DNA of 49,155 nt from Bacteroidales bacterium. Its GTDB lineage: Bacteria > Bacteroidota > Bacteroidia > Bacteroidales > P3. The translations under genes were made by a program, and so were the position numbers. Shown one piece after another: positions 4,084 to 44,542 of this stretch. Numbering within the stretch: position 1 is the first letter of the stretch; each line of letters opens with the position of its first letter. The notes beneath the pieces are model-generated. The model did not search any database and was not told where the DNA came from. It saw nothing but the letters and a program-made list of their open reading frames with translations. The stretch is taken from contig JAISLH010000111.1 in NCBI GenBank assembly GCA_031260565.1, positions 1 through 49,155 on the forward strand. Direction: 5' to 3'.

Positions 4084-4165
4084 CTAAAGCGGCGTTTCAG
4101 TGTCACGAAACGCCACTTTAGAAAATTAAAACGGCGTTTCAGTAAATTGAAACGCCGTTTTAATT
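4084..4165. repeat. Two tandem hairpins of the GGCGTTTC/GAAACGCC repeat family
   Basis: The first hairpin (arms 4084-4098 and 4107-4121, 8-nt loop) has two mismatched positions at most. The second (arms 4124-4140 and 4149-4165, 8-nt loop) is perfect over 17 bp. They separate the convergent MuiA-like and ogt genes and probably act as terminators for both. The first hairpin is, in reverse complement, almost identical to sequences at 40051-40086 and 43715-43748, so it belongs to a dispersed family. Confidence 0.8.
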
Positions 4166-4723: not shown

Positions 4724-5857
4724 TTATTTTTTGCCAATATAGGATAGGAATTCAAGGTCCAAAGACAGGGAAATAAAAGGTGTAACCTTCCATTGCTTCT
4801 TTGTTTGTATCGCAAAGCCGTCTGGCAACTGCATACCGACCTTATAATCGTCTGCCAAAAGATGATACTGAGCTATGTTTAGCCCGCAGGTAAGGTGAAA
4901 GAAGTCAAGGAATTTATAGTTTGCACCAACGTAAAAGTTCTTAAACAGGTTCTGACCACCAAAGCCAACATACAATCCTAAATCAGACGAAAATCTGTCA
5001 TTAGGTTTGTTGAAGTCAAGCAACATAACAGACGCCCCTGTTACAAAATCAAACTCCACAAAGCCATCATTACGATTGACAATCTTGTTATGGAGCTTGC
5101 CGTCAGTGTCAATGAAAGGCATAATATCCCATTCGGGGATAGGGTAAAACCGCATTGATATTCCCTGAATAACTCTCACTTTTTTCTTACGGCTTACGGC
5201 TTGAGCAATCTTAGCTTCGGCTTCATCGGCACGCTTCTTTGTGTATTTAAGTTCCTCATTGATTTTAAGCAGTTCCTTTTCGGCAATGACAAGTTGCTCC
5301 CTCAGCGTGTCGGTCATTTGTGAGTACTTATCTTTCTCTGATGTGGCTACAGATAGCTGCCTGTCCTTTTCACCAATGCTTTTTTCCTTGTCGCCGATAC
5401 TCTTTTCCAAATACTCTATTTCCTTTTCCTTGCCGGCTATTGAAGCGTTTTTGGCTTGCAGAGAGCCTTCAATCTTCACCTTATCAATGTTGGAATTGCT
5501 TATTGCCTCCTTATATAGCAGTTCTTTTTCGGCAAACAATATTTCTTTTTGTTGCAAGACCTTTATCTGTTCTTCCAACAGCAAGTTTTTGTCGTTTAAC
5601 TGGGTGCGAAACTCTCCATTGATGAGTTCTAAAGTGTCGTTAATCCGCTGCAAAGCATATTTCTCGCTTTCCATACGGCTTATCTGCTCCTTTTGAGTTG
5701 AGATTATGACCTTGATGGAGTCTATCTCGTCTGAAAGTAAGGTTATCTGAGCTTTAAGGAATTCTGTTTCTATTATACTATCCAAACCCTCCTGTGCCTT
5801 AGCCACTGAAGCAATAAGCAGAAAGGCAATGAAAATATATTTACAAAGTCTATTCAT
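4724..5857 (-). CDS. Exported coiled-coil protein of unknown function
   Basis: A 377-residue protein with an N-terminal signal peptide (IFIAFLLIASVAKAQ, cleavage likely after residue 21). A long charged coiled coil follows (about residues 35-215, many Lys/Glu heptads such as KEKEIEYLEKSIGDKEKSIG). The C-terminal domain of about 150 residues (from about 225) alternates aromatic and glycine residues (LYVGFGGQNLFKNFYVGANYKF) and could be a small beta-barrel or beta-sandwich. I do not recognise a named family. By layout it resembles periplasmic spacer proteins with an outer-membrane-associated end, but that is inference. It is followed at 12 bp by ogt and has its own promoter. Confidence 0.75.
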   Translation of the reverse strand: MNRLCKYIFIAFLLIASVAKAQEGLDSIIETEFLKAQITLLSDEIDSIKVIISTQKEQISRMESEKYALQRINDTLELINGEFRTQLNDKNLLLEEQIKVLQQKEILFAEKELLYKEAISNSNIDKVKIEGSLQAKNASIAGKEKEIEYLEKSIGDKEKSIGEKDRQLSVATSEKDKYSQMTDTLREQLVIAEKELLKINEELKYTKKRADEAEAKIAQAVSRKKKVRVIQGISMRFYPIPEWDIMPFIDTDGKLHNKIVNRNDGFVEFDFVTGASVMLLDFNKPNDRFSSDLGLYVGFGGQNLFKNFYVGANYKFLDFFHLTCGLNIAQYHLLADDYKVGMQLPDGFAIQTKKQWKVTPFISLSLDLEFLSYIGKK

Positions 5858-7534: not shown

Positions 7535-7966
7535 ATGAACAAAATAACACAAAATATTCCGTCTAAAACAGCAGCAAATGTTGTTTATTCCACAGAAAAT
7601 AAATTCTTCATTACATGTAGTAATTACTTTATTACATGTAATAATTCCTTTATTACATGTAATAATTTCTTCATTACATGTAGTAATTACTTTATTACAT
7701 GTAATAATTTCCTTATTACATGTAGTAATTACTTTATTACATGTAGTAATTACTTTATTACATGTAATAATTTCCTCATTACATGTAGTAATTACTTTAT
7801 TACATGTAGTAATTACTTTATTACATGTAGTAATTACTTTATTACATGTAATAATTCCTTTATTACGTGTAATAATTTCCTCATTACATGTAATAATTTC
7901 TTTATTACATGTAGTAATTACTTCGTTACATGTAATAAAAACATAATAAATTATGGCAGAAAGTAG
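7535..7966 (+). CDS. Possible small gene encoding a seven-residue Cys-rich tandem repeat
   Basis: An open frame of 143 codons begins with a plausible 24-residue N-terminus (MNKITQNIPSKTAANVVYST). It then consists of 16 heptapeptides of the type FITCSNY or FITCNNF and ends NIINYGRK. The 21-bp unit is exactly seven codons, so length changes by whole units keep the frame. There is a promoter-like box 24 nt upstream of the ATG. Against a real protein: a second forward frame (LHVVITL type) and one reverse frame are also open through the array, as happens in low-complexity DNA, and there is no signal peptide or recognised domain. I regard it as a transcribed repeat that may or may not be translated. 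Confidence 0.3.
   Translation: MNKITQNIPSKTAANVVYSTENKFFITCSNYFITCNNSFITCNNFFITCSNYFITCNNFLITCSNYFITCSNYFITCNNFLITCSNYFITCSNYFITCSNYFITCNNSFITCNNFLITCNNFFITCSNYFVTCNKNIINYGRK
7607..7942. repeat. Tandem array of 16 near-identical 21-bp palindromic units
   Basis: Sixteen uninterrupted units of exactly 21 bp share the core ATTACATGTARTAATT. ATTACATGTAAT is a perfect 12-bp palindrome, and in units of the other class AGTAATTACT forms a perfect 10-bp palindrome across the unit junction. Two unit classes alternate irregularly: one reads GTAGTAATTAC, the other GTAATAATT(T/C)C. One unit has ACGTGT in place of ACATGT and the last unit diverges at its end. There are no spacers, so this is not a CRISPR array. 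The 21-bp period is about two helical turns, which would put palindrome centres on one face of the DNA. Confidence 0.95.
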
Positions 7967-10414: not shown

Positions 10415-10467
10415 AAACGCCGTTTCATTTTCTTGAAGTGGCGTTTTAATTTCATGAAACGCCGCTT
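10415..10467. repeat. Copy of the GGCGTTTC/GAAACGCC palindromic repeat
   Basis: AAACGCCGTTTC (10415-10426) can pair with GAAGTGGCGTTT (10435-10446), with two G-U wobbles in RNA. GGCGTTTT also pairs with the following GAAACGCC, so two alternative hairpins are possible. The right half (AAGTGGCGTTT, then GAAACGCCGCTTTA) matches the copies at 40052-40085 and 43715-43748 except in the loop. Confidence 0.75.
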
Positions 10468-10482
10468 TATTTTGGCAAAAAA

Positions 10483-15425: not shown

Positions 15426-16051
15426 AGATTTATAATATAAATGGAGTTGATAGTGCAAGAACTATCACGGTTGATGACACTTTGTTTGCAACAGAACCCA
15501 ATGACCATGTTATTTGGTTGGATGTAAAACAATATTTAGCAAATCAAAGGCAAGGCACACATAAGTCTAAAGAGCGTTCGGAAGTTTCTGGTTCGACAAG
15601 AAAACTTAAGAAGCAAAAAGGAACGGGTGGAGCAAGAGCAGGAGATATTAATAGCCCTACAATTGTTGGAGGTGGTAGAGCATTTGGACCAAGACCGAGA
15701 GATTATCATTTCAAATTGAACAAAAAAGTTAAGCGTTTGGCTCGTCTTTCAGCCCTTTCTTACAAAGCAAAGGGAGATAGTATAATGATAGTAGAAGACT
15801 TTGGCTTTGAGGCACCTAAGACTAAAAACATGATAAAAGTATTAGCTGACTTGAAGATGAATGATAAAAAAACGTTGCTTGTTACTCAGAATGATAAAGA
15901 AAATTTTGTGCTTTTGTCTGCACGTAATCTAACAAAAGTAAGAGTTACAGATGCTGAGTCTATCAATACTTATGATGTTTTGAATGCAAGCAAATTAGTC
16001 ATTACTGAGACCGCAGTTAAGGAATTAGAAAAATTATTGGCTAATTCGTAG
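15416..16051 (+). CDS. rplD: 50S ribosomal protein L4
   Basis: uL4 lines the peptide exit tunnel next to L22. It has 211 residues. The tunnel loop is visible as [17 protein letters not shown] (about 62-78), the region where macrolide-resistance changes occur in other species, followed by [13 protein letters not shown]. Its ATG lies within the last codons of rplC (10-bp overlap). In gamma-proteobacteria L4 represses the S10 operon; no such leader can be identified here with confidence. Confidence 0.98.
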
Positions 16052-16076
16052 TAATATAAATAATAATTAGAGTAAA

Positions 16077-16370
16077 ATGAATATCATCGTAAAGCCGATT
16101 ATTACAGAAAAAATGACCAAGACGACAGAGAGGTTCTCAAACCGCTTTGGGTTCATAGTGGATAAGCGTGCAAACAAAATAGAAATTAAGAAAGAAATTG
16201 AGCTGATGTATGGTGTAAAAGTTGAACAAGTAAACACAATGAATTACGATGGAAAAAACAAATCAAGATATACCAAGTCAGGTTTTATACAAGGTAAATC
16301 GAATTCTTTCAAAAAGGCTATCGTAACGTTAGCCGAAGGTGATACAATAGATTTTTTTAGCAATATTTAA
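16077..16370 (+). CDS. rplW: 50S ribosomal protein L23
   Basis: uL23 sits at the exit of the nascent-peptide tunnel and is the docking site for trigger factor and the signal recognition particle. It has 97 residues, begins MNIIVKPIITEKMTK and contains the anchoring segment RFGFIVDKRANKIEIKKEIE (about 23-42). The central extended loop is intact (DGKNKSRYTKSGFIQGKSN). Spacing to rplB is 9 bp. Length is normal for the family. Confidence 0.97.
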   Translation: MNIIVKPIITEKMTKTTERFSNRFGFIVDKRANKIEIKKEIELMYGVKVEQVNTMNYDGKNKSRYTKSGFIQGKSNSFKKAIVTLAEGDTIDFFSNI

Positions 16371-29444: not shown

Positions 29445-29594
29445 AAGTGCCGTTTCATATTGAAGAAATGGCACTTTTTTTATGCTAAAATGGCAATTTT
29501 TGCATATTAAAACGGCATTTTGGCGTAACGAAACATAATCTTAACATAAATGAAACCGCAATTTATTATATAATAAGTGGCGTTTTGTGAAAGT
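29445..29594. repeat. Degenerate palindromic repeats between rplQ and mgsA
   Basis: AAGTGCCGTTTC (29445-29456) pairs with GAAATGGCACTT (29465-29476), with one G-U wobble, and is followed by a T-run. It is followed by looser copies of the same word: AAAATGGCAATTTT, AAAACGGCATTTTGGCG, AATGAAACCGCAATTT and AAGTGGCGTTTTG. The last copy sits just before the mgsA promoter at 29600. This is a decayed cluster of the family found at 4084, 10415, 40007 and 43693. Confidence 0.65.
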
Positions 29595-29607: not shown

Positions 29608-29616
29608 CAAAACAAA

Positions 29617-29750
29617 AATATGAAGAAATAAGACATAAAAGTTAAAGAAATAAGACATAAAAATTAAAGAAATAATACGCCAAATTAAAGAAGTAAGGCA
29701 TCAAAAACAAAGAAATAACATAATAAATTAAAGAAAAAACGCATAAAAGT
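29617..29750 (+). repeat. Degenerate ~22-bp tandem repeat in the mgsA leader
   Basis: Six imperfect units of 19-24 bp share the core TTAAAGAAATAAGACATAAA; the first two are nearly identical. The final unit runs into the mgsA start (ATAAAAGTATGAAAAAACAA), and the first begins ATGAAGAAATAAGACAT. The units therefore look like copies of the gene's own initiation region that have drifted. The stretch is almost all A, T and G on the sense strand and should be unstructured in RNA. Confidence 0.7.
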
Positions 29751-30249: not shown

Positions 30250-30650
30250 CACTTTTTGACTTAAAAGTTACTGATTTGTTGCAAAAAGTTGCTGATATTA
30301 TACAAAATATCAGCAACTTTTTTTGTTATATCACTGACTTATTCTAAAAAATAGCTCTTTCATCAACAAAAAGTCAGCGTTTTGGAAGAGCAAAATGACT
30401 GTTTTGTTAAAAAAAGTCAGTGATTTGGCAATAAAAAGTCAGTGAGTTGGCAGTGAAAAGTCAGTGAGTTAGAACTGATAACTCACTGACTTAATAATTA
30501 AAATGTACTGACTTTTTATTTTAAAACAACTGTTTCACAAAATTAAAACAGTTAAAACACTTTTTCAAATGAGCTCATTTTTGATGCCAAGTCAGTGAAA
30601 AAACAAAAAAAGTCAGCAACTTTTTATATCAAGTTACTGACTTTTTAATC
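30250..30650. repeat. Cluster of AAAAAGTCAGTGA-type repeats and hairpins
   Basis: About a dozen full or partial copies of the word AAGTCAGTGA or its complement TCACTGACTT fill this stretch. Three copies at 30411, 30433 and 30455 are direct repeats with a 22-bp period. Inverted copies form hairpins: 30283-30299 with 30306-30322 (17 bp), 30460-30470 with 30480-30490 (11 bp), and 30607-30616 with 30637-30646 (10 bp). No gene lies between 30198 and 30817. The word is unrelated to the GGCGTTTC family. Confidence 0.8.
30283..30324 (+). terminator. Terminator of mgsA
   Basis: The perfect 17-bp stem AAAAAGTTGCTGATATT / AATATCAGCAACTTTTT with a 6-nt loop is followed by T. It lies about 85 nt after the mgsA stop and is also the first member of the repeat cluster. 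Confidence 0.7.
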
Positions 30651-30734
30651 AAAAGTAAGGATTCTAATGTTGCAAAATTTTGTTTTTTTTTTTTAAGTAA
30701 ATGATTTTGAAACGGGTATCCTTACTATTTTTAT

Positions 30735-31468: not shown

Positions 31469-31627
31469 CAAAAATTTTGAATACCCACAAACTTTTCGCC
31501 AACTTTTTTAGTTTTTTACTAACACTTTTGATTTTTTTTAACCACTTTATTATAGATTTTTCTCAATTTTCTTATAGTTTTTATTCATTTTACAAGATGT
31601 TTTTCTTTGTTTTATCGTTTTTTTTAG

Positions 31628-36899: not shown

Positions 36900-38303
36900 T
36901 TACTTCACCACAAACTGCTTTTTCACCATACCCTTCTCAGTATGTACTGTGGCAATGTAGTTACCTGAACTGAACTTAGAAGTATTGACCTTAACAGAAG
37001 AAGTCTTTAATGATTGCTCATAAACTTTCTGCCCTGTGGCGTTAGTTATCTCAACTTTCTGCATTGGGATAGCAGTAGTTATTGTTATCTCCTTGTCTGC
37101 AGGATTTGGGGAAAGTTTTGCTACAATATCATTGCCAATCACACCATCTAAACCACTACTGCATTGCTTTATAAAACTATTTATATCACTAAATATTGTA
37201 TCTAATTGTGTAATCACAAACGAACGATAGTAATAAGTTGTATTGCACAACAAATAACTATACGGCAATGTCCAAGAATAAAGACTTTGGTTTGTATCAT
37301 AAGGATAATAAACAACATTTGGGTTATTCAAATTTAGATTATTTGGATTAGTGTCAAAGACAAAGCCTATTGTATGAGGCACAGGAAACCCGTGTGCTGA
37401 TGTAACTACTTCTAAAGTTATTGTACTATTGGTTGTGTCGTCAATAGAAGTTGAATTAAATTGGCATTGAGTTATGGGTGTCGTGTCAAGAATTGGGAAG
37501 AGATAAAATGCAGGATAGCATGTTTCGTTTACTGCTACTAAGTTATAGAGAGTAGTATACGGCGCCATGGCAGCTTTTAATGCGTCTATTGCACTCATTA
37601 TTGGCTGCCACACTGTATCAAAAAGTTCTAATACATAAGGGGTCATTTCTGAACAGCAAAGTTGTTCTATTGGTTTTGGCTCTGTAACCAATTTTAGATT
37701 TCTAACTAAAAGAGTCCCCACTACACCATCCAGACGACACCAATGCCTTGGATGGCTTCCAGTTGCAGGATGATTAGGAGAAAAATTTCCTGCGACATAA
37801 AACGTATCCGTAATAAAAATGGGATTATCAAAAAAGACTTCAATCCATCCAGAGTACCCGGTATGAATATCGGCTATAGTATCTATTCTTATACTATCAA
37901 TTACATTACCCAAGCCTCTATGCAGTTCTAAAAAAGACTTATCATTGCTATCACAGTCATTGATTAATGTTCCATCACTTCTACCGATGCTTCCTAACAT
38001 TGCAAGTCCTCTTATGCAGATGAGAGAATCTACATAATATGGTTGAGCAGTTTTTACAAGATTTAATTTGCTAGGCTCTCCAGCAGCACCAAAGCCTATA
38101 AGACGTCCAGTAGAATACTCATAAACGGTGTCAGCTAATTCGTTGAAACAAATAGGGGTAACAGGAAAAGCTCCACTGGCAAAGCAAGGAGGTAATAAGA
38201 AGTTGCTTTCACATTGTGGAGGATAAATCGTATCCAAATTAAGTTGCCCTATTGCAGTTAGCGAACATAATGTTGCTATTGCTATTAAACATATATTTTT
38301 CAT
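36900..38303 (-). CDS. Exported protein with T9SS type A sorting domain
   Basis: A 467-residue protein with a signal peptide (ICLIAIATLCSLTAIGQ, about 4-20) and, at the C-terminus, a type A sorting domain of about 75 residues. That domain starts LSPNPADKEITI, contains VEITNATGQKVYEQ and ends GNYIATVHTEKGMVKKQFVVK. This tag directs cargo through the type IX secretion system to the outside or the cell surface. The large central part (about 21-390) is rich in Cys, Pro, Thr and Tyr and matches no family I know. The preceding gene ends 5 bp upstream, so the two exported proteins are likely made together. Confidence 0.82.
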   Translation of the reverse strand: MKNICLIAIATLCSLTAIGQLNLDTIYPPQCESNFLLPPCFASGAFPVTPICFNELADTVYEYSTGRLIGFGAAGEPSKLNLVKTAQPYYVDSLICIRGLAMLGSIGRSDGTLINDCDSNDKSFLELHRGLGNVIDSIRIDTIADIHTGYSGWIEVFFDNPIFITDTFYVAGNFSPNHPATGSHPRHWCRLDGVVGTLLVRNLKLVTEPKPIEQLCCSEMTPYVLELFDTVWQPIMSAIDALKAAMAPYTTLYNLVAVNETCYPAFYLFPILDTTPITQCQFNSTSIDDTTNSTITLEVVTSAHGFPVPHTIGFVFDTNPNNLNLNNPNVVYYPYDTNQSLYSWTLPYSYLLCNTTYYYRSFVITQLDTIFSDINSFIKQCSSGLDGVIGNDIVAKLSPNPADKEITITTAIPMQKVEITNATGQKVYEQSLKTSSVKVNTSKFSSGNYIATVHTEKGMVKKQFVVK

Positions 38304-38308
38304 TTGCT

Positions 38309-39712
38309 TTATTGGTTTTGATTATTACTTGAACATACTATTGGAGCGGGCAAAACATAATTGTTTGCACTATCAGCACTCCAATTAATGTCTGCATCTG
38401 GAGTCTGTTCTAATGGCTCGTATTCCATATTTCCCATACTCATTGGGTATAAAGTCTCTGGTAAAGGTTTGCTGCAATGATAAGTATTGCTAAATATTTG
38501 CCTGTTTGCGTACCATACATTTACATTATCACTTGTGTTATCTACACCTATTGCTGCAAAAAGGTAGGGCTTGTATTCCACAACTCCATTTAATAAAATT
38601 AGAGGATTTACAACGGGACCTACTGCTGTATAGTACTTCATAACAGAGGTAGGCAATGTCGATTGTGATACGTCCCAAGTCAAAACAGCATCGTAAGTGT
38701 TATTTGGATTAGGATAAGCTGGGAAAGAAGAAACTATAAGCATTGTGCCGTCAGCATCGTGGTACGACAAATCTCTTATCATAATGTCAAATGATTGCGA
38801 ACCTTCAAGATATTGCTGTTGAAGCAGTGGCATAGAACTATTATTTACGTCTGAAACCAACATTATTGCTCTTGTTGTTGTTGGCAGTTGTGGGTCATTG
38901 TAAATCACTGTTCCAACTATTGCCAAATAACCAGACTGTATAGTTTTGGCGTGAAACTTATTAAGAGGGGAATAATAAGAAGCTGGTAGTAGTGGATACG
39001 TTCGCTGAATGAAATTAGGAATATTGTTCTTCTCATATCTCCTGACAATAATAGCCGTTTGCGCACCATCAAAATATGTTCCTATACTCAATACATATTC
39101 TTCATTTAATTCCAAATCATCAAAAGTTTCAGATGAATTATTAGGATAATAGAAGTCATAATGCCAACCTATTGCTTCATCACTATGCAAAAAGAAAGGT
39201 TGAGCTTTATTTGCGTCAGTACCTATTGTAACAATTTGCACAGCATTATCTCTTGGTCTCAAATATACTTCTATTTTGTCTATGGATTTTGCATTGTTTA
39301 TTATATCCACATCAAAGCTACTACTAAAGAACAAATCATTTATTTTTGCCCTTGCTATAAACCCATTTGCGTTTGCAGTTTGCCCACAAAAATAAATCCT
39401 ATCTTCCAATATAACCATATCTTTCACTTCGTATTGCTGAGGCAATTCGGCTACATTAACGTTGTTTGGAAGATTAACATCTGTGTAGTAGAACACATAC
39501 TGAGTCGTAGAACTTGATTGGGAAAAAGAAATGGTTGCCGAATCACCTACAGCAACAATTTTTTGCGTGTAAGTGATTCCTGAATCGTTGATTTCCCTTA
39601 TTTCACTGAATATTTTTGATACACCCTGAGCCACTACACTATCTGTAGTACAAAGAACCATTAACAGCAGAACTATTGCTACAACTGTTCTAATTTTTAA
39701 AAATTTCATCAT
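38309..39712 (-). CDS. Exported protein of unknown function
   Basis: A 467-residue protein with a signal peptide (VVAIVLLLMVLCTTDSVVAQ, about 10-29). The rest is a series of beta-rich stretches with many Tyr, Asn and Ser residues. Repeating phrases such as VAIVGTVIYND, LLVSDVNNSS and LFAAIGVDNTS hint at a propeller-like or repeat fold. I see no sorting domain: the C-terminus ends NYVLPAPIVCSSNNQNQ. It is the first gene of a pair with the T9SS cargo gene (5-bp gap). It might be a partner or a periplasmic factor of that cargo, which is inference. Confidence 0.72.
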   Translation of the reverse strand: MMKFLKIRTVVAIVLLLMVLCTTDSVVAQGVSKIFSEIREINDSGITYTQKIVAVGDSATISFSQSSSTTQYVFYYTDVNLPNNVNVAELPQQYEVKDMVILEDRIYFCGQTANANGFIARAKINDLFFSSSFDVDIINNAKSIDKIEVYLRPRDNAVQIVTIGTDANKAQPFFLHSDEAIGWHYDFYYPNNSSETFDDLELNEEYVLSIGTYFDGAQTAIIVRRYEKNNIPNFIQRTYPLLPASYYSPLNKFHAKTIQSGYLAIVGTVIYNDPQLPTTTRAIMLVSDVNNSSMPLLQQQYLEGSQSFDIMIRDLSYHDADGTMLIVSSFPAYPNPNNTYDAVLTWDVSQSTLPTSVMKYYTAVGPVVNPLILLNGVVEYKPYLFAAIGVDNTSDNVNVWYANRQIFSNTYHCSKPLPETLYPMSMGNMEYEPLEQTPDADINWSADSANNYVLPAPIVCSSNNQNQ

Positions 39713-40006: not shown

Positions 40007-40096
40007 GCCAAAAGCCACTTAGTCACAGCGAAAGGCTGTTTCAATTTTCTAAAGTGGCGTTTCGTGACGCTGAAACGCCGCTTTAATTTTGGCAAA
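40007..40096. repeat. Copy of the GGCGTTTC/GAAACGCC palindromic repeat
   Basis: An outer inverted repeat (GCCAAAA at 40007-40013 with TTTTGGC at 40087-40093) encloses an inner hairpin, AAGTGGCGTTTC (40052-40063) with GAAACGCCGCTT (40072-40083). Positions 40052-40085 are identical over 34 nt to 43715-43748. In reverse complement 40051-40086 differs at one base from the hairpin starting at 4085. Confidence 0.85.
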
Positions 40097-41446: not shown

Positions 41447-42779
41447 AATAAAGATTATTATAAGGCGAGAATACCTTACAAGGGTTAGGAAGAAGTCGTT
41501 CTTGGTGATGACGATATTGGGTCCGTTATTGATAACTTCTCTGTGGCTTGTGCCGTTTTTTCTTGCCCAGACTTCGGACTCTCAATCACGTATCATAGTT
41601 GTTGATGAAACCGGAAACAAAGAGCCAAAGACCGAGCCGTTATTTAAAAACAAGTTGAAGAGTAATGAGGAAGCGAAGATAGAATATATGGAAGATATTG
41701 CTAAGGCACAGGCTCTTTTACGGGAAGGAAGTTGCGAAGCTGTGCTGGAAATAGTTAGTGCCAACGATATGCCACCCATTAAGTCTTTTTGGTTTTTCGG
41801 CGACAGCGAGCCAAGTTTGAGTGCGCAACATGATGTAGAAAACCAGCTTACGGCATTGTTCAAAGACCATTATTTGAAATATAATTGCGGTGTTACTGAA
41901 GAAGACATAGCCTTTATCAATAACCCAAAGGTCAATTTCTACTCCAAAAACATCCTTACCGGAAAAGACTCTTATAAGGAAATAAAAACAGGCTTGGGAG
42001 CAATCGCTGGCTTCCTTATCTATTTCTTTATCTTTATCTTTGGTTCGCAAATCATACGCAGTGTTTCCGAAGAGAAGATGAGTCGTATTGTTGAGGTTTT
42101 GGTCTCTTCCATAAAGCCTGTCCAATTGCTTTTGGGCAAGTTGATAGGTGTTGCCTTGGTGGGCTTAACTCAGTTTATGCTGTGGATAGTTCTTACTTTT
42201 GCTGTGATAATGGGTATTCAGAGTGCTGCCCCTGACCTGTTTTCTGCTCCTCAAAAAGAAAATATAACGCTCAATGAGCAGGTGATAAGTGTAGATAAAG
42301 TTCAACAGATAGATGCTGCTCCTACATCACAAATCATTCAAGGCTTGTTCTCCATCAACTATGGGCTTATAATAGTTATGTTTCTGTTTTACTTCATTGC
42401 AGGCTACTTTTTATATGCTTCCCTGTATGGTGCGGTCGGCTCGTTGATTGATATTGATACGGACGGACAGCAATTCACTCTGCCGATAACCATTCCTATG
42501 ATTTTGGCTATAGTCTGTCTGCCGATGGTTATGAATAATCCGTCAGGTCCTGTTGCATTTTGGTTAAGCATCATACCTTTTACCTCACCTATAATAATGA
42601 TGGTACGCATCCCTTTCGGTGTTCCAATTTGGGAAGTATGCCTTTCAATGGGTTTGATGTTACTTGCAATATGGGGTAGTATTTGGTTGGCGGCGAAGAT
42701 TTACAGAACGGCTATTCTACTTTACGGCAAAAAGATCACTTATAAGGAGATTTGGAAATGGTTAAAGTACCGAAATTAG
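41439..42779 (+). CDS. ABC-2 type permease (NatB-like)
   Basis: Membrane subunit paired with the preceding ATPase. It has 446 residues: one N-terminal membrane segment (LVMTILGPLLITSLWLVPFF, about 22-41), a large extracytoplasmic domain (about 45-185), then five or more membrane segments starting GAIAGFLIYFFIFIFGSQII. The juxtamembrane EEKMSRIVEVLVSS motif before the third segment is typical of ABC2_membrane_3 proteins. The gene overlaps natA-like by 8 bp and the nuclease gene by 22 bp, so all three are probably cotranslated. Confidence 0.9.
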   Translation: MNKIKIIIRREYLTRVRKKSFLVMTILGPLLITSLWLVPFFLAQTSDSQSRIIVVDETGNKEPKTEPLFKNKLKSNEEAKIEYMEDIAKAQALLREGSCEAVLEIVSANDMPPIKSFWFFGDSEPSLSAQHDVENQLTALFKDHYLKYNCGVTEEDIAFINNPKVNFYSKNILTGKDSYKEIKTGLGAIAGFLIYFFIFIFGSQIIRSVSEEKMSRIVEVLVSSIKPVQLLLGKLIGVALVGLTQFMLWIVLTFAVIMGIQSAAPDLFSAPQKENITLNEQVISVDKVQQIDAAPTSQIIQGLFSINYGLIIVMFLFYFIAGYFLYASLYGAVGSLIDIDTDGQQFTLPITIPMILAIVCLPMVMNNPSGPVAFWLSIIPFTSPIIMMVRIPFGVPIWEVCLSMGLMLLAIWGSIWLAAKIYRTAILLYGKKITYKEIWKWLKYRN

Positions 42780-43522
42780 TCTTAACACTCGTTCTATTCT
42801 GCCTTAACTTTAATCTGTATTCGCAAAAGAGCATTTTCTCTTTGGACAATGCTCAACCAGCTTCATCACAAAAGTTAGAAGTCATAGACCATACCTACTT
42901 TCGTTTGGGTTATAACGCCAAGCACAAAAACTCTTCTTGGGTTGCCTACATCCTAACCAAGCAGATGGTAAGCACGAAGAACGTTGAGCGAGCTAAAAGT
43001 TTCAAAAAAGATAAATCTGTAAGCGTTTCGGCTCTTTCAACCGACTATAACAATAGCGGATATGATAGAGGACATCTTTGCCCTGCCGCAGATATGGCGT
43101 GGAAAGAGGAGGCTATGAAAACGACTTTTCTTATGAGCAACATATCCCCCCAAATGCCACAATTCAACAGAGGGAAGTGGAAAGCATTAGAAGAGAAAGT
43201 CCGCTCGTGGGCTGCGGATAACGACAGCATTATAGTAATAACGGGTGCTATTTTGGACAATTGCAGCAAGGGAAAGATAGGTAAAAACAAAGTTAGTGTC
43301 CCTTGTCGTTTTTACAAAATAGTTATAGACATTTCCTATCCTACCTACAAAGCCATAGCCTTCGTTATGGACAACGACAATCTGGATAACGATATATTTA
43401 CTTATGTTGTCAGCATTTCGGACATTGAACTTGCCACAAGCCTTGACTTTTTCCCTGCCTTCAAATCCAACTCTACAATTACCGACCTTGAACATAGCAC
43501 AGACGTTTTGCAGTGGAAGTAG
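42758..43522 (+). CDS. Secreted DNA/RNA non-specific endonuclease (NUC family)
   Basis: A beta-beta-alpha metal nuclease of the Serratia nuclease family, which degrades DNA and RNA outside the cytoplasm. From ATG 42758 it has 254 residues: signal peptide LVLTLVLFCLNFNLYSQ (about 7-23), active-site motif YDRGHLCPAADM with the catalytic His 106, and the metal-binding SNISPQMPQFNRGKWKALE (Asn 138). The start overlaps the permease gene by 22 bp; an upstream TTG (42752) would add two residues. It may scavenge nucleotides or remove extracellular DNA. Its link to the exporter is only positional. Confidence 0.92.
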   Translation: MVKVPKLVLTLVLFCLNFNLYSQKSIFSLDNAQPASSQKLEVIDHTYFRLGYNAKHKNSSWVAYILTKQMVSTKNVERAKSFKKDKSVSVSALSTDYNNSGYDRGHLCPAADMAWKEEAMKTTFLMSNISPQMPQFNRGKWKALEEKVRSWAADNDSIIVITGAILDNCSKGKIGKNKVSVPCRFYKIVIDISYPTYKAIAFVMDNDNLDNDIFTYVVSISDIELATSLDFFPAFKSNSTITDLEHSTDVLQWK

Positions 43523-43535
43523 AACAAACCTTACA

Positions 43536-43646
43536 CTAATCTACAACAAACTTCTTTGTCGTTATACCTTTACTATTATAAAGTCTCACAAGATAGCTTC
43601 CCTTTACAAAATTGCTAACGTTTATTGCGGCGGTATTGTCATTGAC
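43536..43646 (-). pseudogene. Relic of a T9SS type A sorting domain
   Basis: On the minus strand 36 codons in frame read VNDNTAAINVSNFVKGSYLV, then RLYNSKGITTKKFVVD and a stop. This is the end of a type A sorting domain, very similar in style to the end of the 36900-38303 protein (SGNYIATVHTEKGMVKKQFVVK). Directly upstream on the same strand is an in-frame stop codon and then a palindromic repeat at 43693-43771, so the rest of the gene is gone. I judge it a remnant of a deleted secreted-protein gene convergent with the nuclease. Confidence 0.75.
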
Positions 43647-43692
43647 TTATTTTATTTCATTTTATTTTCAGCAATATACATCTGGTAAAAAT

Positions 43693-43771
43693 AAAACGCC
43701 ACTTTAGCGTCACGAAGTGGCGTTTCGTGACGCTGAAACGCCGCTTTAGGAAATTAAGGTGGCGTTTCATT
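43693..43771. repeat. Copy of the GGCGTTTC/GAAACGCC palindromic repeat
   Basis: AAACGCCACTT pairs with AAGTGGCGTTT, and GGCGTTTC pairs with GAAACGCC, giving two mutually exclusive hairpins in a row. A third, partial copy (AAGGTGGCGTTTC) follows. Positions 43715-43748 equal 40052-40085 over 34 nt. The copy lies at the broken edge of the T9SS relic. Confidence 0.85.
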
Positions 43772-43806
43772 TTTGCGAAAAGATATAAGATAAAAATAAA
43801 ACAGGC

Positions 43807-43933: not shown

Positions 43934-44542
43934 ATGCACGTAGCAATAGCAGGTAATATTGGCAGTGGAAAGACGACTCTCTCCACCCTATTGGCAAAAC
44001 ACTTCAAGTGGGAGCCTATTTACGAAAAAATGGAAGACAATCCATACATAGAGCACTTCTATGACGATATGCGGAGGTGGGCTTTCAATTTGCAGGTTTA
44101 TTTTCTCAACGCTCGCTTTCGCCATGTGGTTGAAGCCAGACAACAATTTGAAAACATCATTCAAGACCGTACTCTGTTTGAAGATGCATATATCTTCGCA
44201 CCTAACCTGTATTCAATGGGCTTGATGACCACTCGTGATTTTGAAACCTACAAATCACTCTTTGATTTGTTGCTTTCCTTTGTGCCAAACCCTGACTTGA
44301 TTATTTACTTAAAAGCTTCCGTGCCAACGCTTGTGCGACAAATTCAAAAGAGAGGCAGAGCCTACGAATCTTCTATAAGGCTTGACTACATCAGTTCTTT
44401 GAATGAGCGTTATGAAGATTGGTTAAGCGGCTATAAAGGTAAAATTCTTGTTGTCAATATGGACGAAAAAGATATTGAACGACCAGAAGACTTACACGAA
44501 ATAATAGAAAAAATCAATGCAGAAATAAACGGATTATTTTAA
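43934..44542 (+). CDS. Deoxynucleoside kinase
   Basis: Phosphorylates deoxynucleosides (deoxyadenosine/deoxyguanosine kinase type) with ATP in nucleotide salvage. It has 202 residues with the P-loop GNIGSGKTT (about 7-15), EKMEDNPYIE (about 31-40), the DRTLFEDA motif (about 78-85) and an Arg-rich lid (RQIQKRGRAYESSIRLDY, about 135-152). The exact nucleoside preference cannot be told. Its stop overlaps the start of kdsB by one base (TAATG type), which suggests coupling. Confidence 0.92.
   Translation: MHVAIAGNIGSGKTTLSTLLAKHFKWEPIYEKMEDNPYIEHFYDDMRRWAFNLQVYFLNARFRHVVEARQQFENIIQDRTLFEDAYIFAPNLYSMGLMTTRDFETYKSLFDLLLSFVPNPDLIIYLKASVPTLVRQIQKRGRAYESSIRLDYISSLNERYEDWLSGYKGKILVVNMDEKDIERPEDLHEIIEKINAEINGLF

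Follow-up and report, generated by a model that had tools for sequence, protein, structure and literature searches.

The closest described counterpart of the feature analysed here is the type A sorting domain of type IX secretion system (T9SS) cargo proteins (TIGR04183; PF18962, Por_Secre_tail), which at full length comprises about 70 to 75 residues. The feature shares the second half of this domain, with the GxY motif and the KKFVV(E/D) ending that many intact tails of the same genome have, but lacks the first domain half, the protein body, the signal peptide and the start codon of a T9SS type A cargo protein. It was found in the window (the whole stretch of Bacteroidales DNA that was analysed, 49,155 nucleotides). 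A second comparison is with the pseudogene fragments that bacteria carry from multi-copy families of surface proteins, which likewise consist of an orphan 3' end, left from one of many paralogues, at a rearranged junction, and from which no distinguishing feature of the remnant was found. For the repeats beside it, a comparison is available in the work of Subirana and Messeguer, who describe tandem repeats in bacteria whose size is constant (20-23 nt) but whose sequence varies (PMC8161180).

The orphan tail and its paralogues

The remnant lies on the minus strand at 43536..43646, where 36 codons (43646..43539; VNDNTAAINVSNFVKGSYLVRLYNSKGITTKKFVVD) are followed by a TAG stop at 43538-43536. No frameshift and no internal stop were found in these codons. 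Against TIGR04183 the remnant scored 27.6 bits (E 2.1e-6, profile positions 38-71 of 72), passing the curated cut-off of 23; against PF18962 it scored 26.4 bits (E 8.3e-6, positions 42-75 of 75) and narrowly missed the cut-off of 27. In the whole-genome PF18962 scan its E value was 4.3e-5. The original prediction had described 36 terminal minus-strand codons ending in GITTKKFVVD as the relic of a T9SS cargo gene; the codon limits and profile matches confirm the first part and the sorting-domain match bears out the second.

An in-frame TAA (43647..43649, minus strand) stands immediately ahead of the first surviving codon, at the limit of homology to paralogous tails. In local alignments with 14 intact tails from the same genome, homology ended at 43648 at the furthest. 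A start codon and further homology were looked for upstream of the remnant codons and neither was found; between the tail and the repeat described below, each of the three minus frames contained stops and no tail-like sequence. The arrangement of a cargo protein, in which the tail is joined to a protein with a start codon and a signal peptide, is therefore not present. The remnant is a truncated homologue of intact genes that is unable to encode the protein, that is, an ordinary pseudogene fragment.

The genome (2.05 Mb; 2,047,486 bases in 133 contigs) gave 71 PF18962 matches at E <= 1, with 58 of the 71 above the cut-off, one of these only together with neighbours in its frame. The remnant was the sole match of the 71 to be reported with a stop inside. 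Its nearest kin are tails of the KKFVVE type that belong to intact cargo genes of this genome. The best DNA similarity was 81% over 91 bp (E 6e-19), and the 14 best-matching tails were 69-81% identical to the remnant over 75-112 bp, the matched stretch being essentially the coding end of the tail. The median pN/pS between the remnant and these 14 tails was 0.42 (29 codons only, a tiny sample), and the median among 91 paralogue pairs was 0.19. The raised value, though over 29 codons, would be in line with relaxed constraint.

A SprA_N match of 561 bits in a 2406-aa frame indicates that the genome is T9SS-competent. A wider set of secreted cargo had been read from the remnant; such a set does exist, given the 58 matches above the cut-off, and the remnant is not needed as proof of it. 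One of these matches falls in the window, in an intact cargo gene of 467 aa with a full sorting domain (36900..38303, minus strand; TIGR04183 39.5 bits, PF18962 41.1 bits).

Two further contigs, C52 and C53, end within T9SS tails, and paralogous tails can thus break assemblies and mimic orphan tails. The 36-residue tails on these contigs were considered as further remnants and rejected. Each lies 12 bp from a contig end and the two ends have their last 119 bp in common, so both were taken as assembly cuts. In the congeners, two stop-containing tails were present among the matches listed (G003:C1:2015-2179 and G002:C10:10813-11004). These are probably cargo genes in decay as well; tail decay thus occurs, though with a low frequency.

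The junction, its repeat and the relatives

The remnant is convergent with a DNA/RNA non-specific endonuclease gene (42752..43522, plus strand; PF01223, E 2.5e-53), the two stop codons being 13 bp apart. This gene is the last of three in a block that includes an ABC transporter and is kept in three of three congeners. On the other side, a deoxynucleoside kinase (dNK) gene (43934..44542, plus strand; PF01712, E 4.2e-51) opens a block of dNK, kdsB-like and PLD-like genes (the latter two names are putative and were read without a profile), the order of which is also kept in all three. The nuclease-kinase junction is absent from all three congeners (G001, G002 and G003), in each of which the two genes are on different contigs. 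The presence of the remnant at a junction missing from every congener makes a rearrangement or deletion at this place likely.

Two other junctions were compared. The cargo-ABC junction, which carries a repeat at 40056, was unconserved in 3/3 congeners (tblastn with the window gene at 38309-39712; G003 is represented by no more than 444 bp at that place). The PLD-pssA junction, which is free of repeats, was also unconserved in 3/3. Junctions between blocks thus change often in the genus, with or without a repeat.

Between the break and the repeat is an AT-rich stretch (43650..43684) for which neither the tails nor the repeat gave a homologous match. The repeat itself (43685..43777) belongs to the GGCGTTTC family. 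Reading of its sequence gives four units of 21 bp, alternately oriented, at 43694-43777, and the whole forms one long hairpin (43685-43776; -49.8 kcal/mol on folding, z -8.3). Exact GGCGTTTC was found 13 times in the window against 0.87 expected. Cores of the form GGCGTTTC-N8-GAAACGCC, allowing at most 2 mismatches, numbered 185 in the genome, 34 in G001, 2 in G002 and 17 in G003; a reversed control pattern gave 1, 0, 0 and 1, respectively. These counts point to an amplification of the family in this species. Hairpin-forming copies in the window were located at 4091-4156, 10440-10463, 40056-40079 and 43685-43777.

A search for the Y1_Tnp transposase (PF01797) gave no match at E <= 0.01 in the genome; the same search was positive in 6 of 14 control genomes. 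No Rfam family matched above its gathering score. The best match (MIR7504, 33 bits against 83) was read as the bare hairpin. A literature search with the repeat strings gave only unrelated papers among the matches listed.

An intact homologue at the same site in close relatives had been proposed as a check of the original prediction. None was demonstrated: no intact cargo gene with a visible tail was found at the remnant site in any relative examined. In G001 and G002 neither the kinase nor the nuclease has a cargo gene as its neighbour. In G003 the neighbour of dNK is a frame of 504 codons or more that looks secreted, is divergent from dNK and oriented like the remnant, and runs off the contig; its end is common to another contig at 99%, and its tail is therefore unreadable. 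A Pfam search of this frame gave no domain above cut-off, and the frame was rejected as an orthologue of genes in the remnant's own genome because the matches were partial, at 34-55% identity.

A home-made tail profile, built from 15 of 25 tails, was also run over 29 further loci around dNK (L032-L060), which reach about 1.5 kb to either side, with less than 450 bp upstream in L036, L041 and L049. Its single match was a tail in L047 that shares its strand with dNK. This was rejected as an intact counterpart because its arrangement differs from that of the remnant. The same profile found no tail in the nuclease surroundings L104-L106.

Origin of the remnant

With a probability of about 0.7, the remnant is a non-functional leftover of a KKFVVE-family cargo gene, the body of which was lost by deletion or rearrangement between the nuclease and kinase blocks. 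An intact cargo gene of this abundant tail family would once have stood between the two blocks, and a deletion or rearrangement there, in the organism's own lineage, would have removed the body and the first half of the sorting domain. As the mechanism, recombination at the repeat has no advantage over illegitimate recombination in AT-rich DNA. What counts against this explanation is that no relative has an intact cargo gene with a visible tail at the site. The lack of a frameshift or internal stop further implies either that decay was recent or that the fragment was copied in and not left behind.

Such copying would mean that a short tail was brought in by ectopic recombination between paralogous tails, and that a cargo gene never stood here. 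The 14 similar tails in the genome, the near confinement of the match to the coding end of the tail and the lack of a cargo gene at the site in G001 and G002 all agree with this, but a near-identical donor is missing from the genome (best 81%), and the explanation is rather unlikely.

A special case of deletion or rearrangement between the blocks is recombination between two GGCGTTTC copies, the first close to dNK and the second within or beside the cargo gene, which would have deleted the gene body and left the tail. It is supported by the distance of the repeat from the break (36-45 bp), by the 185 cores in the genome and by the lineage-specific junction. The original prediction had placed the repeat within 50 bp of the break, which holds, and had taken this as a sign of deletion or recombination at the repeat. 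Proximity still speaks for that suggestion; the gap to the break, the number of cores and the lack of a clear enrichment at tails speak against it. The break and the repeat edge do not coincide, so the proposed check, whether the deletion ends at the repeat, came out negative, with about 36 bp of unrelated AT-rich sequence in between.

Proximity is also weak as an argument, since roughly counted 5.8% of the intergenic bases of the window that are not themselves repeat are within 50 bp of one. Enrichment of repeats around intact tails was tried as a further line of evidence and gave no clear excess: 11 cores were counted around 30 intact tails (91,024 bases; the loci fetched out of the 58 matches above cut-off), against 8.2 expected from the genome density of 185 sites in 2,047,486 bases. 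The PLD-pssA junction, which has no repeat, is just as unconserved. From the gap, the background proximity and the counts around tails, the repeat is plausibly a bystander. The case for a role of the palindrome in the break is weak, and recombination between GGCGTTTC copies is accordingly improbable as the origin of the remnant. The broader proposal, that species-amplified palindromes of 21-bp units are break sites turning over the T9SS cargo repertoire and that the remnant is one scar of this, is more doubtful again.

A false contig join at a high-copy palindrome, which would make the remnant an assembly artefact, has a slightly lower standing still. The repeat is short and present in many copies, the assembly is in 133 contigs, and C52 and C53 end inside tails with a common terminal sequence. 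The tail, however, is already cut by the in-frame TAA 35 bp ahead of the repeat, and a false join at the repeat would leave this truncation unexplained. A join error could be the source of the odd nuclease-kinase neighbourhood. Finally, a working small protein of 36 codons, or a tail used in trans, can practically be dismissed: the codons are open and consistent with the conserved residues of the family, but the open stretch has no start codon, the first domain half is absent, the one promoter-like site on the minus strand is no more than chance would give (1.8 expected) and pN/pS is raised.

Periodic repeats and comparison with known systems

By itself the leftover tail means little, being another fossil from a family of secreted surface proteins that is large and changes fast. 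Truncation is seen here as a route of cargo gene loss in the genus. No paper on T9SS tail relics was present among the matches listed in a literature search. The adjoining repeats may matter more, as an intergenic class of fixed period.

Arrays with a period of 21-22 bp and unrelated unit sequences occur in the window, largely between genes. Tandem-repeat rows of this period were located at 7598-7938, 10415-10473, 16042-16083, 29466-29521, 29614-29748, 30263-30307, 30411-30470, 30610-30652 and 31535-31592, and a tenth at 5364-5408, within a coding frame. Of the 15 tandem-repeat rows of the window, 10 are thus of this period, whereas 30 simulated windows gave 7 such rows in total. Periods of 21-22 bp also dominate the tandem repeats of the congener stretches L095 (G003), L097 (G001), L105 (G002) and L106 (G001), where doubles of 42-44 bp occur as well, with other sequences. 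The same period with other sequences in three congeners implies that the sequence changes and the period stays. These arrays are more notable than the tail remnant.

In the main text of PMC8161180 there is no word beginning 'Bacteroid', and the accessible portion of PMC6749651 has nothing on period 21-22. The GGCGTTTC family can be compared with REP and related intergenic repeats, which are likewise short, intergenic, palindromic and of high copy number. It differs from REP in its alternating 21-bp units and in its occurrence in a genome without a match to the Y1/REP-type transposase family. The 21-22 bp arrays of the window and congeners, with their unrelated sequences, resemble the repeats of Subirana and Messeguer (PMC8161180); compared with the repeats described there, the GGCGTTTC family alternates in orientation and so forms hairpins.
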